From assembly GCA_015501075.1 (NCBI GenBank), contig JADNYJ010000107.1, positions 62,001 through 126,000 of the forward strand: a DNA stretch of 64,000 nt, written 5' to 3'. The notes beneath the pieces are model-generated. The model was not told the origin of the DNA, did not search any database, and saw only the letters and a list, made by a program, of their open reading frames with translations. Origin of the DNA: Gymnopilus junonius. Its lineage: Eukaryota; Basidiomycota; Agaricomycetes; Agaricales; Galerinaceae. Within the stretch, counting starts at the first letter, position 1, and each line of letters begins with the position of its first letter. The position numbers and the translations under genes are program-made. This document shows, piece after piece, positions 17,185 to 58,078 of this stretch.

Positions 17185-18084
17185 CTAAATCTTGAGGGTA
17201 TATATGGCAGCAGATGCATGTCTATCACGAAAGCTTGAAAGGTCTGGAGGGTTGTTTTCTGTGTGTCCAATGTACTCAGGCTGGCCACCATCAACCATGC
17301 CATCATAGTACCAAATTTGTCCATCAGATTTGATAATGATAGTGGTAAAGTGTGCTTGACCATAGTAAATAATGCCTGCTAGTCTGTAAGTATGAGAAGC
17401 AATACCTCGTTTAATCTTAAAAGACATATCAGCAGCTATAGCATTAACAGTAAGATCAAATACTAGAATGTGAGGCAGACCAACAAGTGTATGGTTACTG
17501 TATCCTGCTTCATGACATTCAGTGCAGGTCCGAGATGAACTGTAGTTTGGCTTACATAGAGCCCAATCTTTTACTGACTCACATCCATGAGTGTTCAGTA
17601 CTAGACAGTTGTGGCTGTTATTGATAATATGATTATGATTGTTGCCACAAGAGTGAAATACATGATGGGTACTAAAGTTGACTTCAAATATTGCTGCAAA
17701 GACATGCTCAAGGGATGTATATCGTCCAAAAGACATTGTTGCAGGATTCAGTGCCTGCAATCTATGGCGGATATTGTCTCTGGTGTCTTCCAATGATTTT
17801 TGATTTCTTTCATGCAGTAGAAAGCCCTTGTGTAAGGCAGTAAGAAATTGATTTCCTACAGAAGTAAAGAATGATTTCCACCTATGTTGGTCTTCTGTCC
17901 AGATTGAAAGAAGAAGTGTAAAAACAGAGTCATATGCACAGCTATTGTTGCTCCATTTCATTCCAGTTGGCACAAGACAATGATGTGGTGAAGGCAGTTG
18001 AATGGCTGAAGTCCTTTTCTGTCGCTTGGTCTTCTTTACTGAATCTTCAGTAGAGTGTTTTCTCTTTTGTTTCTGTTGCTGCAA
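17185..18084 (-). pseudogene. Helitron C-terminal cysteine protease/deubiquitinase-like domain
   Basis: The 299-codon frame has no ATG start of its own and its N-terminal basic stretch (KKTKRQKRTS) lies just after the helicase. It shows a cysteine box WSNNSCAYDSVFTLLLSIW, in which N-x-x-C-x-x-D-S resembles the catalytic loop of ubiquitin-specific proteases. Near the C-terminus YGQAHFTTIII supplies a candidate catalytic His and WYYDGMVDGG a following aromatic/Asp box. A C-x-x-C pair (RTCTECHEAG) could bind zinc. I read it as a papain-fold deubiquitinase-like domain fused to the helicase. A one-base frame change near 18.09 kb now separates the two parts. Function within the element is unknown. 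Confidence 0.6.
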
Positions 18085-18100
18085 ATGAGTGTCTGACTGC

Positions 18101-19960
18101 TCAGTCTTTGTATCTATAAGCCAAAGGCACCACAGAAGAATCTATAGCATCCACACTACTTTCAATGAAAGGGTCAAATTTTGACCACCGAATTGCTGAA
18201 TGGACAGTTGCAGGCACATGATGAATACCTTTCCACTTATGAAATGTATGTATGAGTGAGTTCCTTGTGTCCCCTGTGACACTGAAGTGGAGTTTGCCAT
18301 TGTATCGCAATTTTGTAATTTCATCTAGCAATTCTAGCTCTCGAAACTCTTGTCGCAAACCTCCATACAATTTTTTCCCTGTTATTTTTCTCTCATCAAA
18401 ACCTTGAAGAATCATAGTACCCTTTGCCGTAGAGCTACGGGACAATGCCATATAATATGCCTGATGTGAATTGAGGTTGTTAAGATCTGCAGTGTTAACA
18501 CCCCTTGTCTTTCCCTGAGAAACAAAGTCGGTCATTGCAAAATTAACCAGTATCTCTGCCTGAGTACGATTGATCAACACAGTATCATCATTTGGAAGAG
18601 CAGCAGATATGGCAATCTTTGATGGGACAATTGGAACCACATTCTCAGGAAGACCCTCAAAATGAACACAGGACGGAGGATCCTTCAGTTTAACAAATAG
18701 AGTGTCCAATACTCTTTGTCCTTTTTTACCCAACTTTGACTGCCAACCATGTACAAAACCTTCTTGACCTCTTGTCATACAAAGCTCAGTAGCATAATTT
18801 GTGCGTATCATAACTGGCAGTCCAATACATAAACTCAGTTTTCCAGAAATATGCTTGTCTGTTGTTGAAGGAGGAAGCGCCCATAGACCTTCTTGCATTT
18901 CGTCTGTTATGTGATTAACTCATTTAATATTAATTGAGTTTTCCTTGTCAGTTTTTCCTGCTCTAGGTTCATCCTCAGAAAAGAAGTCTGTGAGCTGCTG
19001 ACCTGTTTCTTGGGCAAACCGGATTGCTCCAAGCCTATTGATTTCATCTTTGTGTAGGTTTCTTGCTGTAATCACTGATACATTTCTAAATTCATCATCA
19101 CATACGGAGCGCTCACCTGGCTTGTGAGATGATATCAGCGTTTTTAAAAAAGCAATATCTTTGATTGAACATGCCTTATATCGCATATTCTCTAGGGCTT
19201 GTCTGAGGGATGAATCTTCTTCGGATTGTGTGCGCTGTCTCATGTTCTGCCGTAGTATAACGACAGTTGTAACCTGGTGCCATAATGCCTTTCCAATTGA
19301 CTGTTCCTGTGACCTTGAACCTGTTGAAGTCAACCCAATGCTATGAGAATATAAAGATATACTTTCTCCACCCATAGCAGGAGGTAATTGTGCAAAGTCA
19401 CCTGAAAAAACCATGTTAAGACCTCCAAAAGGGACATCAGCACAGCCTAAAATTTTAGCCAGCTGGCTGTTTATTCTAAAGAGATCTCTTGCAGACAACA
19501 TTGAAACTTCATCAAAAAATACATATTCCACTCCTCTAAGACCTGATTTTATTTCTCCTAGTTTAGCACAGCTCATATAGTCATTTATACCAAATACTGA
19601 ATGATAGGTATTTCCACCTAGTAGAGCTGCTGCAGTACCAGTCGGAGCAACAATAACGAAACGATGACTCTCTTTTCTTTCTATAAAAAAATGTGATAAA
19701 GCTTTCAGTACTTGAGACTTGCCTGTGCCTCCCATACCACCAAGATACATTTTCAATTGCTCAGGATTTTTGGATATTGCATGATTGGCAATAATTCTGA
19801 AGGCTCTCTCTTGCTCTTCGTTAAGACTAAATTTTAAAATAGTATCTTTTACAAGGTCTGAATCAGGGACAACTTCAAATTTCTTTTCTAGATATGATTT
19901 GTCTACAATTTTTACTGTCCCCTCCTTGACAACATTATTTGTGTAAGAGCAATGCTCTCT
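18101..19960 (-). pseudogene. Helitron Pif1-family helicase
   Basis: From about 19960 the minus frame reads NEEQERAFRIIANHA and then the Walker A loop YLGGMGGTGKSQ, followed by VAPTGTAA (motif Ia), VFFDEVSML (Walker B) and FSGDFAQLPPA (motif III). After an in-frame TGA at 18920-18922 it continues with GLPVMIRTNYATELCM and the motif VI block AYYMALSRSSTAKGT. These are the motifs of the superfamily 1B Pif1 helicases that unwind DNA during Helitron transposition. The single TGA and frame shifts at both ends make it non-functional. Confidence 0.8.
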
Positions 19961-20170
19961 TTCTTCAGCAGTACGTGTATATGAGCGTTGTGTTCATTTT
20001 TTTCTCCTGTATTTCTAACTTTTTTTTATCGACTTCATGCTTCCATTGAGAACCATTTATCATCCGGTCAGGTATGAAAGGCTCTGAGCCAGAACAATCT
20101 GGTTGCTTTGGATTAATCCAGCCAAGCCTTGTTAAAATTGAATTCATTTCAGCAGCTTCCCTTAGACGTC

Positions 20171-22393
20171 TTAACTTTTTACGCCACACTGCAAAGGATG
20201 ATCAGGGGCTTCATCATATTGTGGGTACATTCCATTGGACTCTGCACTATCATCAGCACCATCCCCACCATTCTCATCCATCCAGCTACCTATGAGTGAC
20301 ATGTCCACACCTTTCTTCAGCTGAGCACGAAAATCGTCTCTTGCATCTAAACACTCATATCTGACATTGAAATTGTCCATCAGTTGAACATCCCTTTTTG
20401 AGAATTTATGCTCAGAAAAACACTGGTCCCATGAACCAGCAGTTTTGAGCTCACTTGGTTGGCGCCATGGCTTGAAAAGGGTCAGCATAGTGCAACAATA
20501 GTACTCTCTGTCACCTTGGTCACGTCTAGGCAGATTTCCCCCCAGGAAATTAGGTACTCGGTGTGTATTGTTTTTGATGTACCGGTGTATATGGCTCTCA
20601 TACAAAGGGTGGTTGTGTTTGAAATAGTAGCTGCCATCTGGAAGGTCTTCGCGATCCACTGGAACAGACTTGTTTGACTCTTCCAGCGATGCAGTGGAGT
20701 CATCATCATCATCATCTATGAAGGATGACTCATATGAGTCTGAAATAAGACTGCTATCTCCATCTTCCTCCTGCTTATTTTTACTACCTTTTGTATTCTT
20801 AACTAATTTTTCTCTGGTAAAGCATCGTATCCACTCATACAGTGAAATATTCTCCAGTTCAGCAGAGCGATGAACATAATCCAAAACAGGTGATATGCCC
20901 ACAACCCTTCCATTGCTTCGTACAATTGCCACCTTCACTTGCTCACGGCTATCATCTAGTTCACTAAGCTCACGACGGACATAAGTAACAAAACTTTGCC
21001 AATAGAAAGGTACAAAGCTGTGCCCAGTGTAATGATCAGGATTGCCCAGAAGGTACATACAAATCATGGGAGCACCCATTTCAGCTCTGGCACTTAGAAG
21101 ATTTACAACTTTGGTCATAAAACGTCGTGCCTTTTCTTTCATTGGTAATGTGCCACCTAACATTTCTCCATTTTTCCGAAATATGGAACGGATAGAATCA
21201 AATATTGTATGGGTTTTCAAAGACGCTTTGGTTATGTAGTCAGATATATAGATAACAATTGCTTTAATTGCAGTTCCTGATGACAGACAAGTAACATCTG
21301 TGTTGCACCGAAATAGATAAGTGACCAAAGGTGTGAAGGTGTTGATCCATTGCTCTCTCTTCCTCATCTGAATTGCACCCAGCTTGTCTATCAATGTTTC
21401 AAGGACAACTGCTCTTGGAAATCTGGCTTTACACTTTCCCCATATATTATCAAGACAACCTTTGAAAGAGCTTGTCTTTTTTCTACTCCCGTCACGTTTT
21501 GCACCATGACTGCAGCTATGAACATTAGATCGATCAAGGGTATCATCTGTAATAATGTTATAACTATCCTTCCATCTGCTGTAATTACAACAAAGTTTAC
21601 AACTGTCCTCAAAACCACCAGCATGGGTTTTGCACGCAGGTGGTGGAGCAGCAGGAAGGCATTGGGTTGGGTCAGTATATCCCTCTGCTTTCCGGAGGGC
21701 ATTGCATTTCTCAAGAACTTCAGCATGTGTTCCTGTGAGAAAATCTCCAGAGAAGCAGCTTTCTAGCCAGTCAGTTACCTTCTTTCGCCATTCTGAATCA
21801 GCTGCCAGAATACGATCACGGAGCTCTTGTGGGTTCAAGCAATTTGTGATCCATAATAGCATATGTAAGTGTAATGTTAACCGTCCTTGCTGCTCAACAG
21901 TACCATAGTATGCACTTGTATGACCATACAAACCTCTTTGTTTCTGTCCAACACCAAGTACGTCTCTTATAAAAGTCTCAACTATAAAGTGAAAAAATCG
22001 TGCACCTGCAACTGGGTTTGCACAAATTAATCGAATGCGTTCATCATAAGGTAAAAGTAGCTCAGGTTTATACTCTGTCTTTGTATCAGCAAAGTACAAA
22101 CAAATTGGATGCTGTATATCAGCAGGAGACAGTGTAATGTACCAGCTCGGTGCACCTAGAGAATTTATCAGTGACCATATTTCGTTTCGCATGTACTTTT
22201 TGCTGGTTGTTGACCCATTGACAGGGCCCTGCATCGCATCCAGATCATTAATGATCTGAAAGCAAAGCTTTTCGGGCTCAGATTGAGGCTTGACATATTC
22301 ACCCTTCTCCAATCTTTCCAAGATGGTGTCCAAGACAGACCAATTGACATCCATGAGGTGTTGGCTAATGTCAACAAAGGTTCTGCTCTGCAA
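20171..22393 (-). pseudogene. Helitron HUH endonuclease (Rep) domain
   Basis: The 740-codon open frame starts without ATG because a one-base shift near 22.39 kb cuts off the preceding codons. It contains LGAPSWYITLSPADIQHPIC, then the metal-binding histidine pair RLTLHLHMLLWI, and the twin-tyrosine element IVIYISDYITKASLKTH. These define the rolling-circle nucleophile of Helitrons. A Cys/His-rich insert (about 21600-21440) and an acidic serine-rich segment (20640-20730) follow. The C-terminal part ends at a frame change near 20.19 kb, beyond which the continuation toward the helicase is found in another frame. Confidence 0.8.
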
Positions 22394-22573
22394 GAAGAAA
22401 TCCTTGTGTATTTACGGTTTTGATTTGCTGGTGTGAGAATGCTACAAAAGGAAAATTGGTATCTGTTTGGAAGCGCTTATCATGGTACATAAGAAGGTGT
22501 CATATGTGAGCCTTTTCGGACAATGGTGTTGTCCCGATCCCACCTCTTCCATATGGAAATAGCCAAGGAAACA

Positions 22574-23911
22574 TCATTGGATATAGCTGGGATTATCGTA
22601 GATGGATTCAAGCTTACTACTATGACCGACAGCTAGCATCTTTCCATTGCTGTTTAAGTGCCGGAGTGCAATGGCCTTTATTTCGTTGGTTGACATACTT
22701 TGTAGGCTTTCTGCTGTAAGGCCATGTACCGTAAAGGGGCAATCCCCTTCTTCTGCACCGTCTTCTGTGTCCTGGTCAAAGACACTTGTTCCCTCTGGCA
22801 CCTTATTTGTCTCAGATTCTCTATACTCAATCGAGAGGGGGCATGTCTTCGGGATATGACTCAAGATTGCTGTGAGATATCTCTATATTTGCATAGTCGC
22901 AATGGTTGAGTTTAAGCCAGTTTAATGCACGAACAACACAGTTTCTTCTTACCAGAAATGGGTTCTCTTAAGGTCATCAGGTGTGGGCTTACATGGACCT
23001 GTGAAGAGTATTGCAAGGACATCATCCATATCATCACGGGGTGGAGGAAGTATATCATATATCTTAGGAATGGGTGATTCAAAAGCAACCATATTGGCCT
23101 TCATTTTTTTCATGCCAGAAGCAACCTTTACATATGCACATGTGTGTCTCACTCGTGCAATAAGAAGTTTTTCTACAAACCGCAAGTCTTTCAGCTCTTT
23201 CGGTACAGTGCCAATCCATAAATTGTTAGCAAGGGCTTGACGGGGAACAACACCTTTCCTGACCCGGCCCCTGCAGTCATGACATATTTTATCGCAAGTG
23301 TAATCAAGAACAGGACCATTATACTCCTGCACAGGACGATCTGGTGTTCTCCTTTCGCGGCAGTAACGCCAGGTGACTCAAGAATATGTAGCATCTTTTT
23401 CACTGCCTTCAGCCTGCTCAGCTCTTTGAGAGGTTTCAACTGACCACATACAGCACAACCAGCTTCTTCTGTGCTTTCCTTCGACATAGACTTGCAAGCT
23501 CTCTTCAGAATGTCATTGAAAAGATCATCACTCAAAGGTTGGGGGGAACTCCAAGTTGACAGAATCATCCTCCACCTGAACACTTGACCTGTATGCCTTG
23601 ACACGTGCATTGGAAAGCTTAGTTGTACTTGAATCAACTCTAAAAACATAATAACATGCGGCACAAGACTCGCAGTTGTGATCCACAGATTCCACAAGAA
23701 GATCCGCCAGCTTACACCTAGAACCCAGGTTGATTCCATGTGCACAGGCAATCTTCCGAGCCTCAGGCAGAGTCACCAAGTTCAGAATTGTGCCCAGAGG
23801 CACCCTGGCACATATATGACCCTGACAGACAAAGGTACTATAATCGGGATCAACAGAGCATTGGAGGAAGCAGCTTGGACCTATGGTCAATTCCACTGAT
23901 ATCTGTGGCAA
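22574..23911 (-). pseudogene. Helitron N-terminal region (DUF6570-like)
   Basis: Three overlapping minus frames form one interrupted protein. It carries a Cys pair (CAVCGQLKPL), CDKICHDCRGR, and the block ANNLWIGTVPKELKDL with LLIARVRHTCAYVKV and YDILPPPRDDMDDVLA, all typical of the DUF6570 domain at the start of fungal Helitron proteins. Further on it reads GHSSKLESIYDNPSYIQ and, after a frame change, FPWLFPYGRGG, the junction into the Rep domain. More upstream (23911-23528) is a CESCAACYYVF stretch preceded by a helix that may be a SAP-like DNA-binding motif. Several shifts and one TGA (22500) break it. Confidence 0.65.
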
Positions 23912-24625
23912 TATATGGCCGGAGTACCTGAAATTCTATAAAGCTGAGTGCCCTACCACCACCCTTAGCTGAAAGACTGGGTCTGTCAACAGTAGGCGCA
24001 TTCACATGACCCAGAGGAATACCACGATGGAACAGGAGATGACGAGCAGGGTGGCATGAAAAGACTGCAACATGCAAGAAAACAGGAAAGATACTGCACA
24101 TACATGATCACTGCATAAGAAACCAGTGGAGTGAACGCCTGAAGTGCTTGGAAGGCCATATGAACCACTCCAAGAAGGTCGAACAGCCATTGCAGACAAG
24201 GCCCGAGATGCCTCAAAAGGTTTACCAGGACAGGGCTGGCATAGACGCAACACCTTGTAAAGGCATCCACAAGAACGCGGAATATACATTGAGCATGGGT
24301 CAATGCTGTAATACACCAGGTAGATAAGAATACATCCAGCGCAATGGAAGGGAGAAAGATCTGCAACCGGAAGTCAGAGAGGGTCAGAGTCCACCATGAA
24401 GGAAAAATACCTCTTAATTGGTCTTCTGACAAGTGAGTCAAATGGTGCAAAGTCCCTCTAGACTGAAACAAGTCTGAGGCAAAAGCGCTCGAACAGCAGA
24501 TGTAGATCAACGGAACGAGCGCGAGCAGAAGGCCAACGCACAACGGTGACATGTCGGGATGAAGGCAAGAGCAAGGCGTGCGCGATCCTCAAAGTGAACC
24601 GTGAGACGCGAAAGGCACGTGCAAG

Positions 24626-52359: not shown

Positions 52360-55300
52360 CTTCAGCTCAAGGGGGTTCTGGAAAAATAAAAAAATACCCG
52401 GGGTCGAATTTTTTTTTAAGGCCACCTAAGCCTGGGCTATCTACCTATGTAATCAGGCACGGGTCTATATATAGAAATATGACATCATTTGCGCAAGCGC
52501 TTGGCCGCTCTCCTTGTCTCCGGCGCGCAAACATCGCAAATCCAGTTGCGTGGTGCTATCTCTGTCTTAGGTCCACACCGTAGATGAAACTAAAATATGA
52601 ATGTGAGTGAAAGGGAACATTGATCGTGTTTTGAGAGACTTACCCATTGAGTTACACAGGTGGCCTGTTTGCACTTTATAAGGGGATCCCTTTCGGATAA
52701 CGAATGGTCCACGACTTCCCCGCATAGGCAGATATTTAAAGCTTCGCCCTCTTGAACTTGTTGTCGTGGAAATTTCTTGCGTTTGAATCGCCCTAATTCT
52801 TCGACAGGTGCATCTGTGCTTGTATCCATGATCTTCGAGTTAGCGTCGTTTGTTTCTGGTTCGTTCGTTTCTAACCCAATACCTGTCGCTTCATTCTCAG
52901 TTCTTTCCTGTGGCAACAACAAGGAGTCATCCCTCTTGAGTTTCTTGCAAGTAAGTACAACACGATTTCCCATCTAGTGATAGGAAGACTCACGCTGTCA
53001 GCCAAGCTATCAATCATTTCGACGTCCTCGGAGTTTGACACGGAAACGCTAACGCCAACGTTTTCCTCTCTTCCCACATCCACCTCATTCTCCTGTTGCA
53101 TATCTACTGGTTCCCAAAACCCCGATGTCTCTTCTGGTTCCCAAAACCCTGATGTGTCCCGCTCCAAGTCGACGTCAGTCTCTCCATCTGGATCGAGATC
53201 GCTCTCATCCGTTGGCAACTGGTCCTGAAGTTCGTCATCGTCGGAATCGCTCAACTCGTGTTCAAGGTCATGGTTATCAACCATTCGGGTCTCATCGCTA
53301 GGATAAAGGTATGTAAGTTATTGGTTTCTATCAATTTGGGGCATTCAAATAGGAAATACCTTCGAGGAATTTGGGCGCGATGGTCTTCTGAAATGACCAG
53401 AATGGATTCTTCGGTTTTCTGGTGCGTGTCACCATTATAACCTGTCGCTTTGCCCATATTTTCTTCATTTCAGATGTCTCAAAATCCGAGAGTTTCCAAA
53501 GGTTGTCGTACTTCAGAAGAGGCGCGTTCGATGCTTCTCTTGGAAGTGTATTCGCAGAGAGTAACGCCAGATTGCAGGATCGGTTTTGGGACAGAGCGGA
53601 CATTGGATGGGCCGTTTGAACATGGGGAAGAAGCTGTAGATTGTGACGCAACATGGTAGGAATATTTAACTTTCATATGGCAGCCTTTCGATAATGCTGC
53701 ATTGATTCCTAGGCGGCCGTTAGCACCTTTGCCCTTCTTCAGGAAGAATTGGCATAAAGGCGCTGGCCGAAGACACAAGCCGCACAAAGCTGTTGATCGT
53801 CGAAGCTTGGATCGTGAAGAATATGTGCGCCCATATGTTCGAGTACCCTTTGGCCTTGTGTCAGGTCCAATGTGACAGTTGGCGAGCATCGAGGACAATC
53901 TCCACTTCTGATATCGACCACCTGTGAGTCTTCACTACAGATAAAGCATGCAGCACCTGTGCAATAACACAGTGAGTTCATTTGAATAAGAATGTGAATA
54001 TTCACTCACCTGATGCTTGACGGTACGGATAGTCTTTGTTCGGCGCCAGCTTTGGTATGTTTTTCAAAGCGGAGAAAGACATCTGTTGGAATACACTGGC
54101 CGCCAAGGCAACAAGAAAAGTTCCCTGAAAAAGATACCATGGAAGACCAGTATGGGTCCTCGAAATTGTGGGGTTGATGGGTTGGACGAGCTTTCCTGGT
54201 ATGGTAAATGATTTTTCCTCCATGCAGTAAGTTCGCCAGTCATTCTGATTGTCTGGGTCATCATCTACGGTTGCAGGCCGCATACCAAGCACCTGATAAG
54301 AAACGGTGACCGTGTCTTCCAAGATTATATCTAAGTTGAGATAAGGACATCTTTCTCTATGACTCGATGTCGCAGTAATGTGCTGGCTTCATTTTCAGCT
54401 GCGGCAATTTCTTCGAGCGCATCCTCAACCTCGACACGAGTTTCAGCAGCCTCGTCATCTGGAACACTGGGAGGAGGGGATGGAAACTCGAGGCTCTTGT
54501 CGATATCGTCATCGGCGAGGGGTACATCGAAGAGTATCGTTCCAGAGGGTGCAAGAATGGTAATGTCTTGATTTTTGTCAAGCTCGGCAAGAACTGACTT
54601 CAAGAAATCGCAGTCCTGTTCAGCAAGAAGTTGTCCACGTTCCACGAGGTTTGGAGGGAAACATCCTTTACTTTGACATTACCTCTCCATGATGCCGGTT
54701 TAATATGGTCTGCATGATCAGGAATTGCTTCGGATTTACATGTAAGAGCGGGTAGCTTGAGGCATTGAGGGGCATGATCCCACTGGGGATATTTTGCTAG
54801 AATATTGGACACCTCGGTAGTCCCAGATAATCGAGAGACAAGTTGAAGCATATCCAAGTTGGCATCGTTACCAACCATCGTCCGAAGGATTCCAAACAAC
54901 TCCTCGAGTCGGTCAGTGCCAATAAGATTATCCAAAATTCTCCATCCGGATCGTCGACCTTTGCTTTAGCAATGCAAAAAATGACATTCTTTATCATGAT
55001 CATCAGGTCAATTTGCAAGTTTGTTGGTATAAAATTTTCCCCCCCAATTTGTATAGTCTGAGAGCAAGGTGAGCAGCTGCGCTTAGATGCTCAATCTGCT
55101 CAGACAGGGAAAGATCAACACAGAGGTAGGGATAGACAATGTGAAAGAGAAGTTTCCCGAGGATCCATAAAGCCTCCCTTGTTGCTGCGACTCCTGGGTT
55201 GGGGTTTGTAGACTTCCGAGGTAAGGTCCAGATATCCTTGAGCATATCAAAAGCCATTTTAACGTCCTGCTGGTCATCTGGGTTGAATACAGACCTAATA

Positions 55301-58078
55301 TGATCAGCAGACGAGCCCGCAGATTTGAAATGATCACAGATGGTATCTGGTGTAATTCTGATGTTATTGATCATGACGCCTCATTGCCGGAGAAGAAGAT
55401 TGTGGAAGCATTTAAAGACATGCTTCCAGTCTTTGTCCCATGTAAGATCGTCATCTCCAACATGAAGGTCAAGGAATTTGAGAGGGTGGAGAAGGTGATA
55501 AATTGGCGAGCCGACAGATAGTTTTTGTTTAAATGTGAGGAGAATAAACGCTGATCCACGGCGAGATTCACCATCAGATGCTATAGACACGGTGCATAAT
55601 TTAGTCTTTTCTTTCAGACCATCTATGCCATCGAGGATGGTTTGAATCAGTGTGGAATATTCCTCTCCAGTTTCGCATTTACAATCTCCAGATACAAGGA
55701 CAGGTCGGGCAGGGTATATGTGATGATCTTTGCATAGAATTCCTAAGGCACCCACAGTAGCCTATAATTAGAGTCATTTAGCCTCGGATCAGAAGCAAAG
55801 TTCCAAATGGAGCCAAAACTGAAACGTTCTCACCTCTCCTGCATAATGCACCTTCTCGCTCTCACTCTCATTGTTGAGGTGGCGAAACAGCTCCTCCAAG
55901 TCCCCTTCATTGATGAATTCCAAGGATGTCCTATGCCGTGCTCTCTGCAGACTCCCAGAAAGTAATTGGACTTTGGATCCCAACAGATCCTCTTTTCTGT
56001 AGCAAGCTATCGAACATCACCATGGTATGCAGTACGTTTTCTTCGATCTGATTGTGAATAACTCCAGCACACTTTCCAGTGAAGCTTGAACGTTGGATTT
56101 AACCTCTCCTGTCATCGGCTGTCCACAAGAAGGGATGATTGGTGGGACAATTGAGCGAGTTCTAAGGTACGAGACACTTGGTCCACCCAGCGCTTTCTGA
56201 TAGATTCCAGCAACACGATTTCCAGATAGTCTCCATATGAGCAGGGCCTTCATATCCTCCTCCTCCGTGTAGCTTTTCGGGCGGTAATGGCCCTGGGCAG
56301 CTGTGAGCACTGAGGCAAGAAGACCCCAAGCGCCCTTTTTTTGCTGAAGGCCAATGCTGATAATGCGGTTGACACGTTGAACCTCGCCACTAGCAATCGC
56401 CATCAGCAATCGCTTTTGTTCCGACAATGCAGCTGTTTTTCCAAGCAGTTTCTTGGCCTGGTTCAATCCACGAAACCGATAGAACTCGATCTCCTGGTTT
56501 TTTTGCTGAAGGAGCTCTTGGAGGCCGCCGCAACCATGGTATGCATACGGAGCATTTGGATGGACTCCATCCGTCATTCTTGTGAGTATCCCTTCGAGGC
56601 TGGTGTTTTTAGCTAGCTGTCGGCATGGCTGACAGCTCTCAAAACTTCCTGCTGACCGCCCAGTACATGATCGCACAAAAAGCGTCAATCCTCTGTCATC
56701 AAATGTGCAGTTCCATGGAAGGGGATGGACATCATGTAATGCCAAGGGGTAAGTGCTATGTGGTGATTTGTCGTCTGGAATGATGAGTCGATATCCACTG
56801 CATCTGGGAACTGCCTTCTTGTTCTGCTTTTCAGGCGCGAATGATTCCACATCAATTATCTCCTGTTTGTGCTCTGCTATGCTCAATCCGTCATGGATTT
56901 CATTGGGTACGAGGTCGTTTGGGTCTGATATTGGTAGGATTCTTGATACTACTGAACCTTGTGCATCCGATGCCCTGATCACAATGGTGAGTTGCATGAT
57001 TGTCCATGATACAAATAACCACTCACTTCTTCTCCAAAGCCGCCATCAAGTACGATAGCTTGCCTTCAAATAGACCCTCCTTCACCCCGCATTTTACAAC
57101 AAAGTGTTTCACGAAGTTTTCCAGGCCGTCCAACCCTTTTCTCCCTCACCAAATGATGGGATCCATGTCTTCCTCCATCCCCCAACCTAGAACCACTTTC
57201 AAGAGTGCATTCAAGACTGTTTCCCACAGCTCATCTGCATCCAACAGTGGATCATCAAATCGTGTTGGGTCTCCTTCAAAGATTGCCAATTTATCATTGG
57301 CTGTAGCTTCAGGGACAGTATCTGGTAGGTTCTTGATTAGATCATGTAATGTCCCAAGGAAGCCTTTGACAATTGGCTCTGCAGCAGGTTCTGATGATGC
57401 TCGTGGAGTGTGTTGCATGTTTATGGTGGGTAAGACTGTCTTCTCTGCTGGCTGAGCAACTTTGCTTCCCTGGATGAGTTCAGATCGAGGAATTGTCAAA
57501 GGTACATGAGCGGCTTTCGGCTGGGCAAAGAAGTTGAGTAGGGTGGGGCGTTTTGCTGTCTTTTCATTCTTTTCATGTTTCTCCTTTGCTTTTATGCATG
57601 TCTTCTTTCCGCGATGGTTTTTTTCGAGATTGGCAAGGCCGGCAGTGCCACAATGGATGCAGGTTTTGCAATCTGGGCAAACTGCATACCCGTCAGAGTC
57701 GAGTGTGGCTCCCTAATGTGTCATTAGTATGATATAAACATAGATTCCTGGTCTTACCTCTTGATTTGAGCTACTCTCCATGTAGATTGGCAATGAAAGG
57801 GTGTCAGGAGCAGTCGTGACAGTCTGGGGGCTGATCACCGCTACTGATTAGATAAACTTCAATCTTTTGCACATTAATCAATATTTTTACAAGGACTATG
57901 GCTATTCTAAACATCTGAGAGTCTCGTAGATGCATGTTAAAGGCTCTAAGCTCATCTAAAAGCCATTTTGAGGCCGATTTGGGAGGTGTTCCAAAAAAAT
58001 TTTAAGCCGGCCTATGGCCGGGCTACCTACCCAACCCCCGGTCCGGGATTCTATTTCCCGAACCCCCTTGCTTCAGCT
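52360..58078 (-). mobile_element. complete 5.7-kb DNA transposon with 8-bp target duplication
   Basis: The element spans 52368-58070. Its left end reads CAAGGGGGTTCTGGAAAAAT and its right end, reverse-complemented, CAAGGGGGTTCGGGAAATAG, so 17 of the first 20 bases agree. Just outside, CTTCAGCT occurs at 52360-52367 and again at 58071-58078, a perfect 8-bp target-site duplication. Inside both ends are GC-rich palindromes built on AAGCC and GGGCT (about 52410-52435 and 58003-58025). One minus-strand gene fills the interior. Eight-base duplications are typical of hAT and P-like superfamilies. The gene does not look like a classical hAT transposase (no BED-hAT dimerisation end is seen), so I leave the superfamily open. 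Confidence 0.85.
52495..57781 (-). pseudogene. transposase-like gene with N-terminal zinc finger and C-terminal PHD finger
   Basis: The frame starts at ATG 57781 (MESSSNQE) and, after one intron, enters a Cys/His finger (AVCPDCKTCIHCGTAGLANL, then H and C) with a basic end. A long middle follows: VSGDCKCETGEEYSTLIQTI and VSIASDGESRRGSAF (55.7-55.6 kb), FNPDDQQDVKMAFDMLKDIW (55.27 kb) and TDRLEELFGILRTMVGND (54.9 kb). The G-x-D-x-L-E-x-x-F pattern with upstream Asp residues resembles the split RNase H core of P-element/THAP9-type transposases. The final exons encode a PHD finger (CLCGEVV ... CKQATCVTQW, FHLRCGP ... NWICDVC) and a basic tail, stop at 52495. Lesions: TGA at 57146-57148 and one-base shifts near 55025, 54930 and 54640. 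It must have been active until recently, as the termini are intact. Confidence 0.7.

Follow-up and report, generated by a model that had tools for sequence, protein, structure and literature searches.

A putative P-superfamily DNA transposon with a C-terminal PHD-type finger in the mushroom Gymnopilus junonius

Fungal P elements are already known from rust fungi, where they were reported in 2011 as 'previously unknown in any Dikarya' and produce 8-bp target duplications (PMC3164196); the rust elements in Repbase (P-1_PSt, P-1_MLP and others) resemble the one studied here in being fungal and making 8-bp duplications, a comparison by description only. GTP serves P transposase as a cofactor, a property described as shared by no other transposase (PMC7776569). 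Duplications of 8 bp are also produced by hAT transposons and by Zisupton, as stated in a paper on TET-encoding fungal transposons whose main text contains neither 'PHD' nor 'P superfamily' (PMC12730594). Zinc domains of PHD or PHD-like type also accompany other recombinases, namely RAG1/RAG2, derived from Transib, and the domesticated piggyBac proteins Tpb2 and PiggyMac (PMC4411706, PMC8086355). All of these belong to superfamilies other than P, the PHD finger of RAG is on the partner protein, and the PiggyMac domain has no true PHD fold. Our literature search covered titles and abstract openings, with subscription papers and Repbase outside its scope, and within it neither a P element from a mushroom nor a PHD finger on a P transposase came up; the term 'P element' does not occur in the consulted part of PMC10799480.

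Here we describe an element in a 64,000-bp stretch of G. junonius DNA, referred to as the window, in which a sequence-only reading had noted a DNA transposon at positions 52360-58078. The observation is confirmed. Like the P superfamily (Drosophila P element and THAP9-type), the mushroom element combines profile homology, a D/D/E set of acidic residues, a DxxHxxKxxRN block, an 8-bp duplication and CA...TG ends. It differs from that superfamily in having a C2HC finger in place of THAP, an extra insert past the first aspartate, altered residues at the GTP-contacting positions, added Cys/His-rich regions and a PHD-type finger at the C-terminus.

Outline of the element and its insertion sites

The element is 5,703 bp long (window 52368-58070) and has the following ends:

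52360-52367: left target site duplication CTTCAGCT, found as one copy at the empty site on C212
52368-52387, plus strand: left terminal inverted repeat CAAGGGGGTTCTGGAAAAAT, 17 of 20 bases agreeing with the right end
58051-58070, minus strand: right terminal inverted repeat CAAGGGGGTTCGGGAAATAG, pairing with the left end
58071-58078: right target site duplication CTTCAGCT, the second copy of the duplication

Re-checking the inverted repeats gave the same 17 of 20 bases as first reported, and the 8-bp duplication claimed with them is borne out by the single CTTCAGCT at an uninterrupted site elsewhere in the genome. When the window flanks are joined at one CTTCAGCT, they match C212 (L077) across the junction, with 96.6% identity over 2,806 aligned columns and a 2-base difference just past the single CTTCAGCT. 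The element has thus been mobile in the past. A second empty site was found for a shorter copy on C41, whose joined flanks match C412 over 200 of 200 bases (97%).

The 58.0-Mb assembly of 898 contigs that contains the window was scanned with a 17-base terminus pattern, allowing at most one mismatch, and with the reversed pattern as a control. The pattern matched 23 times versus 0 and 1 for the control. These 23 matches comprise 11 pairs, the window element among them, and one unpaired end on C201. Identical 8-bp flanks border all 11 pairs (window copy counted), which represent 10 distinct insertions as C548 and C778 have a common site. On C41 (339 bp) and C360 (599 bp) lie copies that have lost the interior of the window element and are 97-100% identical to it where matched; such near-identical deletion derivatives show recent movement of the family. 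A short non-coding family was also observed, with eight pairs of 183-412 bp carrying CAAGGGGGTGC termini and exact 8-bp duplications on C1, C2, C239, C548, C756, C762, C778 and C894 (L030-L046). A search with one member recovered all eight plus one diverged match, on C896, and the genome searches identified no coding partner with CAAGGGGGTGC termini.

Coding matches were located by protein searches of the genome on C10 and 13 other contigs, at least 14 in total, a count that is a lower bound (27 of 84 candidates were scored in one search); the copy number of the coding family in this genome is modest. Around the matches on four of the 13 contigs, a scan made independently of the terminus sequence detected exact 8-bp duplications and CAAG ends, and another scan, in which that sequence was assumed, added a fifth element:

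C209: 6,402 bp, exact 8-bp duplication, CAAG ends
C138: 5,973 bp, exact 8-bp duplication, CAAG ends
C106: 5,880 bp, exact 8-bp duplication, CAAG ends
C50: 5,883 bp, exact 8-bp duplication, CAAG ends
C131: 4,131 bp, found by the scan assuming the terminus sequence

Complete elements are therefore present on 6 of the 14 coding contigs, and the five besides the window copy have exact 8-bp duplications. In the terminus-free scan, 9 of the 13 other contigs lacked a convincing end pair, C131 later gaining one and C56 showing only a poor pair 595 bp apart; as the sequence examined often ends about 1.5 kb from the match, missing pairs say little. With the terminus assumed, no end pair was found on C201 or C423, and C166 has two good ends with 8-bp flanks that do not match.

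The elements on C106 and C50 are 97.7% identical and have different target duplications. In the empty-site test of C50, its two flanks matched different contigs, C123 for the left and C680 for the right, and were not joined. A coding match lies on C123 beyond the flank resembling the left flank of C50, which suggests that C50 and C123 may carry a single insertion on two haplotypes. Flanking sequences that resemble those of the element copies at 96-100% identity, whether or not they enclose an insertion, were seen at L077 (C212), C412:117820-118020, C123 and C680. Their occurrence on several contigs is a hint of two haplotypes and suggests that the assembly contains both.

The transposase gene and its relationship to P transposases

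The element had been described as complete, with a single gene filling its interior. Its outline is indeed complete, but the gene has been disrupted. The start, MESSSNQE at 57758-57781, is 289 bp from the right end as stated, while the last base of the stop codon, 52485, is 117 bp and not 127 bp from the left end. At least eight breaks, two in-frame stops and six frame changes, interrupt the 1,102 residues read. The Cys/His finger, VSIASDG, TDRLEELFG and PHD finger of the first description were all located on the minus strand, where the gene has these parts:

52485-57781, minus strand: broken transposase gene with introns
57596-57679, minus strand: N-terminal C2HC-type finger, conserved in relatives
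56152-56271, minus strand: stretch aligned before the P catalytic domain, the probable helix-turn-helix position, by profile alignment
56009-56035, minus strand: VLHTMVMFD block, putative catalytic D230 equivalent, mapped via P0010
55555-55593, minus strand: SIASDGE block, putative catalytic D303 equivalent, mapped via P0010
55384-55461, minus strand: DKDWKHVFK...N block, equivalent of P D339xxH342xxK345, mapped via P0010
54840-54920, minus strand: GTDRLEELFG block, equivalents of P D528 and putative catalytic E531, mapped via P0010
53531-53787, minus strand: further Cys/His-rich region (LCGLC..., CPLC...HFQEKH) in more than one frame, from the alignment consensus

C106 and C50 (L049, L062 versus L050, L060) differ by 119 transitions and 5 transversions, with 101 of the transitions in CpG context, a deamination-like signature; in the short copies differences are fewer and the CpG bias is weaker. 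The observed/expected ratio of CpG falls to 0.16 in C209 and 0.37 in C138; for the window element, C106 and C50 it ranges from 0.67 to 0.82, close to the value of 0.78 for the remainder of the window. The pattern is consistent with older copies having been methylated and then deaminated. Elsewhere in the window, minus-strand ORFs at 17185-24000 appear Helitron-like by eye, with parts of a replication initiator and a Pif1-type helicase, and the 6-kb block 18001-24000 has a CpG observed/expected of 0.40 versus 0.78 for the window outside the element.

The joined pieces, used as a query, matched 324 proteins at E <=0.001 among 7,999 scored. Among the best 120 of these 324, near-full-length relatives are 57-62% identical and partial ones up to 76%. 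Nearly all of the 120 are named hypothetical or uncharacterized, 7 having the UniRef name 'PHD-type', and their genera include Psilocybe, Pholiota, Galerina, Mycena, Pleurotus and Armillaria, all of which we take to be Agaricales, along with others. One relative used as a query, P0079, returned six proteins including itself, a low number since the query words come from its first 500 residues. The suggestion in the sequence-only reading of high-copy unnamed genes in mushroom genomes is right as to the many unnamed relatives; the copy number counted in this genome, a lower bound, is modest.

Pfam gave no match at E 1 for the joined 1,102 residues and, for single exons, only a weak unrelated one to Nmad3 (E 0.095). 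In 28 relatives, TNP-like_RNaseH_N (PF21787) matched 18, all weakly and below the cut-off (best E 0.0014). Five other families matched one relative each, three of them unrelated at E 0.0016 to 0.0043, and as these reach similar E-values, PF21787 stands out in number of members and not in strength. Pfam contains a KDZ model. At E 0.1, none of the 28 relatives matched a hAT, KDZ or THAP family; several P transposases among those listed also have no THAP match in Pfam, and THAP is not found in every P member.

Homology to P transposases is evident from profile comparison. A reference alignment of 42 P transposases was taken from a search with the Drosophila protein, and hhalign aligned the 28 fungal relatives with it over 362 columns (probability 97.7, score 120.8, E 1.7e-12 for this one pairwise comparison), versus scores of 16.8 to 23.5 for nine controls, one reversed and eight shuffled. 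With only the Drosophila sequence as partner, probability was 4.4 and E 0.0093, the motifs again being in register. In P0010 the counterparts of P residues D230, D303 and E531 are D563, D681 and E905, which 27, 28 and 28 of the 28 relatives conserve; as the first description had proposed, these would be the acidic motifs of an RNase H-type transposase. D339, H342, K345, R348 and N349 correspond to the DxxHxxKxxRN block, kept in 28, 28, 28, 27 and 28 of 28. The second and third acidic residues are 224 residues apart versus 228 in P, and the first and second 118 versus 73. A PDB search returned no chain for the family profile at E 1 and none for the core consensus at E 10, so 6p5a was not reached from sequence. 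The first description had left the choice between P-like and hAT undecided; Pfam, the profile comparison and the motif mapping resolve it, at the level of sequence, in favor of a probable place in the P superfamily.

Among the GTP-contacting residues of P transposase (PMC7776569), V401 and D528 are kept, whereas K400 and S409 have given way to other residues, as has K385 (still K in 1 of 28). F443, D444 and N447 fell outside the alignment, which is less certain here, though K400 and S409 adjoin well-aligned positions. As to the GTP-binding insertion domain of P, none of the 28 relatives matched PF21788. GTP use may be changed in the mushroom enzymes.

The C-terminal PHD-type finger

The full C4HC3-type PHD finger first reported at the C-terminus has all eight ligands, and a 54-bp intron splits it directly past its tryptophan:

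52644-52730, minus strand: first half of the PHD finger, CLCG to TQW, by pattern and alignment
52590-52643, minus strand: intron inside the PHD finger (GTAAGT...TTTTAG), 54 bp, with splicing predicted from sequence
52485-52589, minus strand: last exon, containing the second half of the PHD finger (52527-52589) and ending with the stop codon

Some relatives' gene models end at this intron. Of the listed proteins, 39 reach 1,500 aa or more; 12 of these have a whole C4HC3 pattern, 8 only its first half and 19 neither. In the genome, the second half is found by pattern in C209 and C138, with the C-terminus of a relative aligning over this part of C209 (E about 1e-7), and C106 and C50 have by eye an atypical Cys-rich finger. 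In an alignment of 13 fingers, the window finger and 12 picked by the C4HC3 pattern itself, the eight ligands, one threonine and the tryptophan are invariant. Pfam PHD (PF00628) matched 4 of 4 relative fragments at E 0.0025 to 0.098 and the window finger at E 0.11, all below the curated cut-off; as whole proteins, none of the 28 relatives matched it at E 0.1. PF00628 is also absent from the Pfam column of 120 listed animal and metagenome P proteins, a weak observation since that column fails to show it for the fungal relatives too.

A profile of the 13 fingers matched 22 PDB sequences at E <=0.01 (best 5.2e-8), 20 of them of the ING family. ING fingers read H3K4me3. Those of ING1-5, Yng1, Yng2 and Pho23 are thus the closest solved fingers, with the same ligand pattern and tryptophan, while the mushroom finger differs from them in being fused to a transposase and in lacking an aromatic residue before the first cysteine. 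At what we take to be the methyl-lysine cage positions of ING fingers, the tryptophan is kept in 13 of 13 and the preceding aromatic residue in 0 of 13, and the residue following the third ligand is basic or polar where ING4 has aspartate. The cage looks incomplete from these residues. Histone binding by the finger is plausible.

A model of transposition and the competing readings

Taken as a whole, the locus is best explained as a cut-and-paste DNA transposon of the P superfamily, to which, together with the steps that follow, we give a probability of roughly 85%. The transposase would recognize the CAAGGGG termini, probably by its N-terminal C2HC finger and helix-turn-helix region, and an RNase H-type active site formed by the equivalents of D230, D303 and E531 would excise the element, a chemistry suggested by homology. 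Joining to target strands 8 bp apart would then give rise to the observed 8-bp duplication. Contact of the ING-like PHD finger with the tails of histone H3 would most likely tether the complex to chromatin, although for this step taken by itself we would put the odds slightly short of even. The window copy is now broken, and the near-identical deletion derivatives indicate that the family moved recently.

The chief competitor accepts a P-superfamily transposon but holds that the PHD-type finger is no histone reader, and instead binds DNA or another protein or only stabilizes the transposase. With a non-aromatic residue before the first cysteine in all 13 fingers and a basic or polar one after the third ligand, the finger departs from the ING cage, and those of C106 and C50 look atypical; yet 20 of the 22 nearest solved sequences are ING fingers, and the tryptophan and all ligands are invariant. 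We consider this reading a serious one that falls only a little below an even bet. The remaining alternatives concern the identity of the element. Assigning it to another RNase H superfamily that makes 8-bp duplications, for instance KDZ/Zisupton, or to a new one that only looks P-like, would accord with the duplications made by Zisupton (PMC12730594), the longer insert between the first two acidic residues (118 versus 73) and the differing GTP site. It is improbable given that no other superfamily model matched the 28 relatives at E 0.1 and that 362 columns align with P with motifs in register; KDZ itself was dropped on the Pfam result. A hAT transposon, which would share the 8-bp duplication, similar CA...TG terminal bases and an N-terminal zinc finger, was likewise dropped, the strong P profile match and the lack of any hAT Pfam match in the 28 relatives at E 0.1 making it very improbable. 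That a host gene happens to lie between chance repeats, as the listing of relatives in databases as hypothetical proteins might suggest, is refuted by the empty site, and like termini with exact duplications surround diverged genes as well; we give it practically no credence.

Returning to a P-superfamily transposon as the preferred explanation, a bolder version would have a mushroom P clade in which THAP was replaced by a C2HC finger, an ING-type PHD finger was gained, the GTP pocket fell out of use and the PHD finger steers insertion through H3. We regard this version, drawn from sequence comparisons, as rather doubtful. If true, reading of H3 tails by the PHD finger would steer insertion to a chromatin state, making integration unlike that of classical P elements. 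With its ING-like finger built in and its GTP pocket altered, this naturally occurring P-type transposase would allow chromatin choice and GTP use to be tested by point mutants. The mushroom hypothetical proteins of this set are probably products of transposons, and gene counts should mask them.
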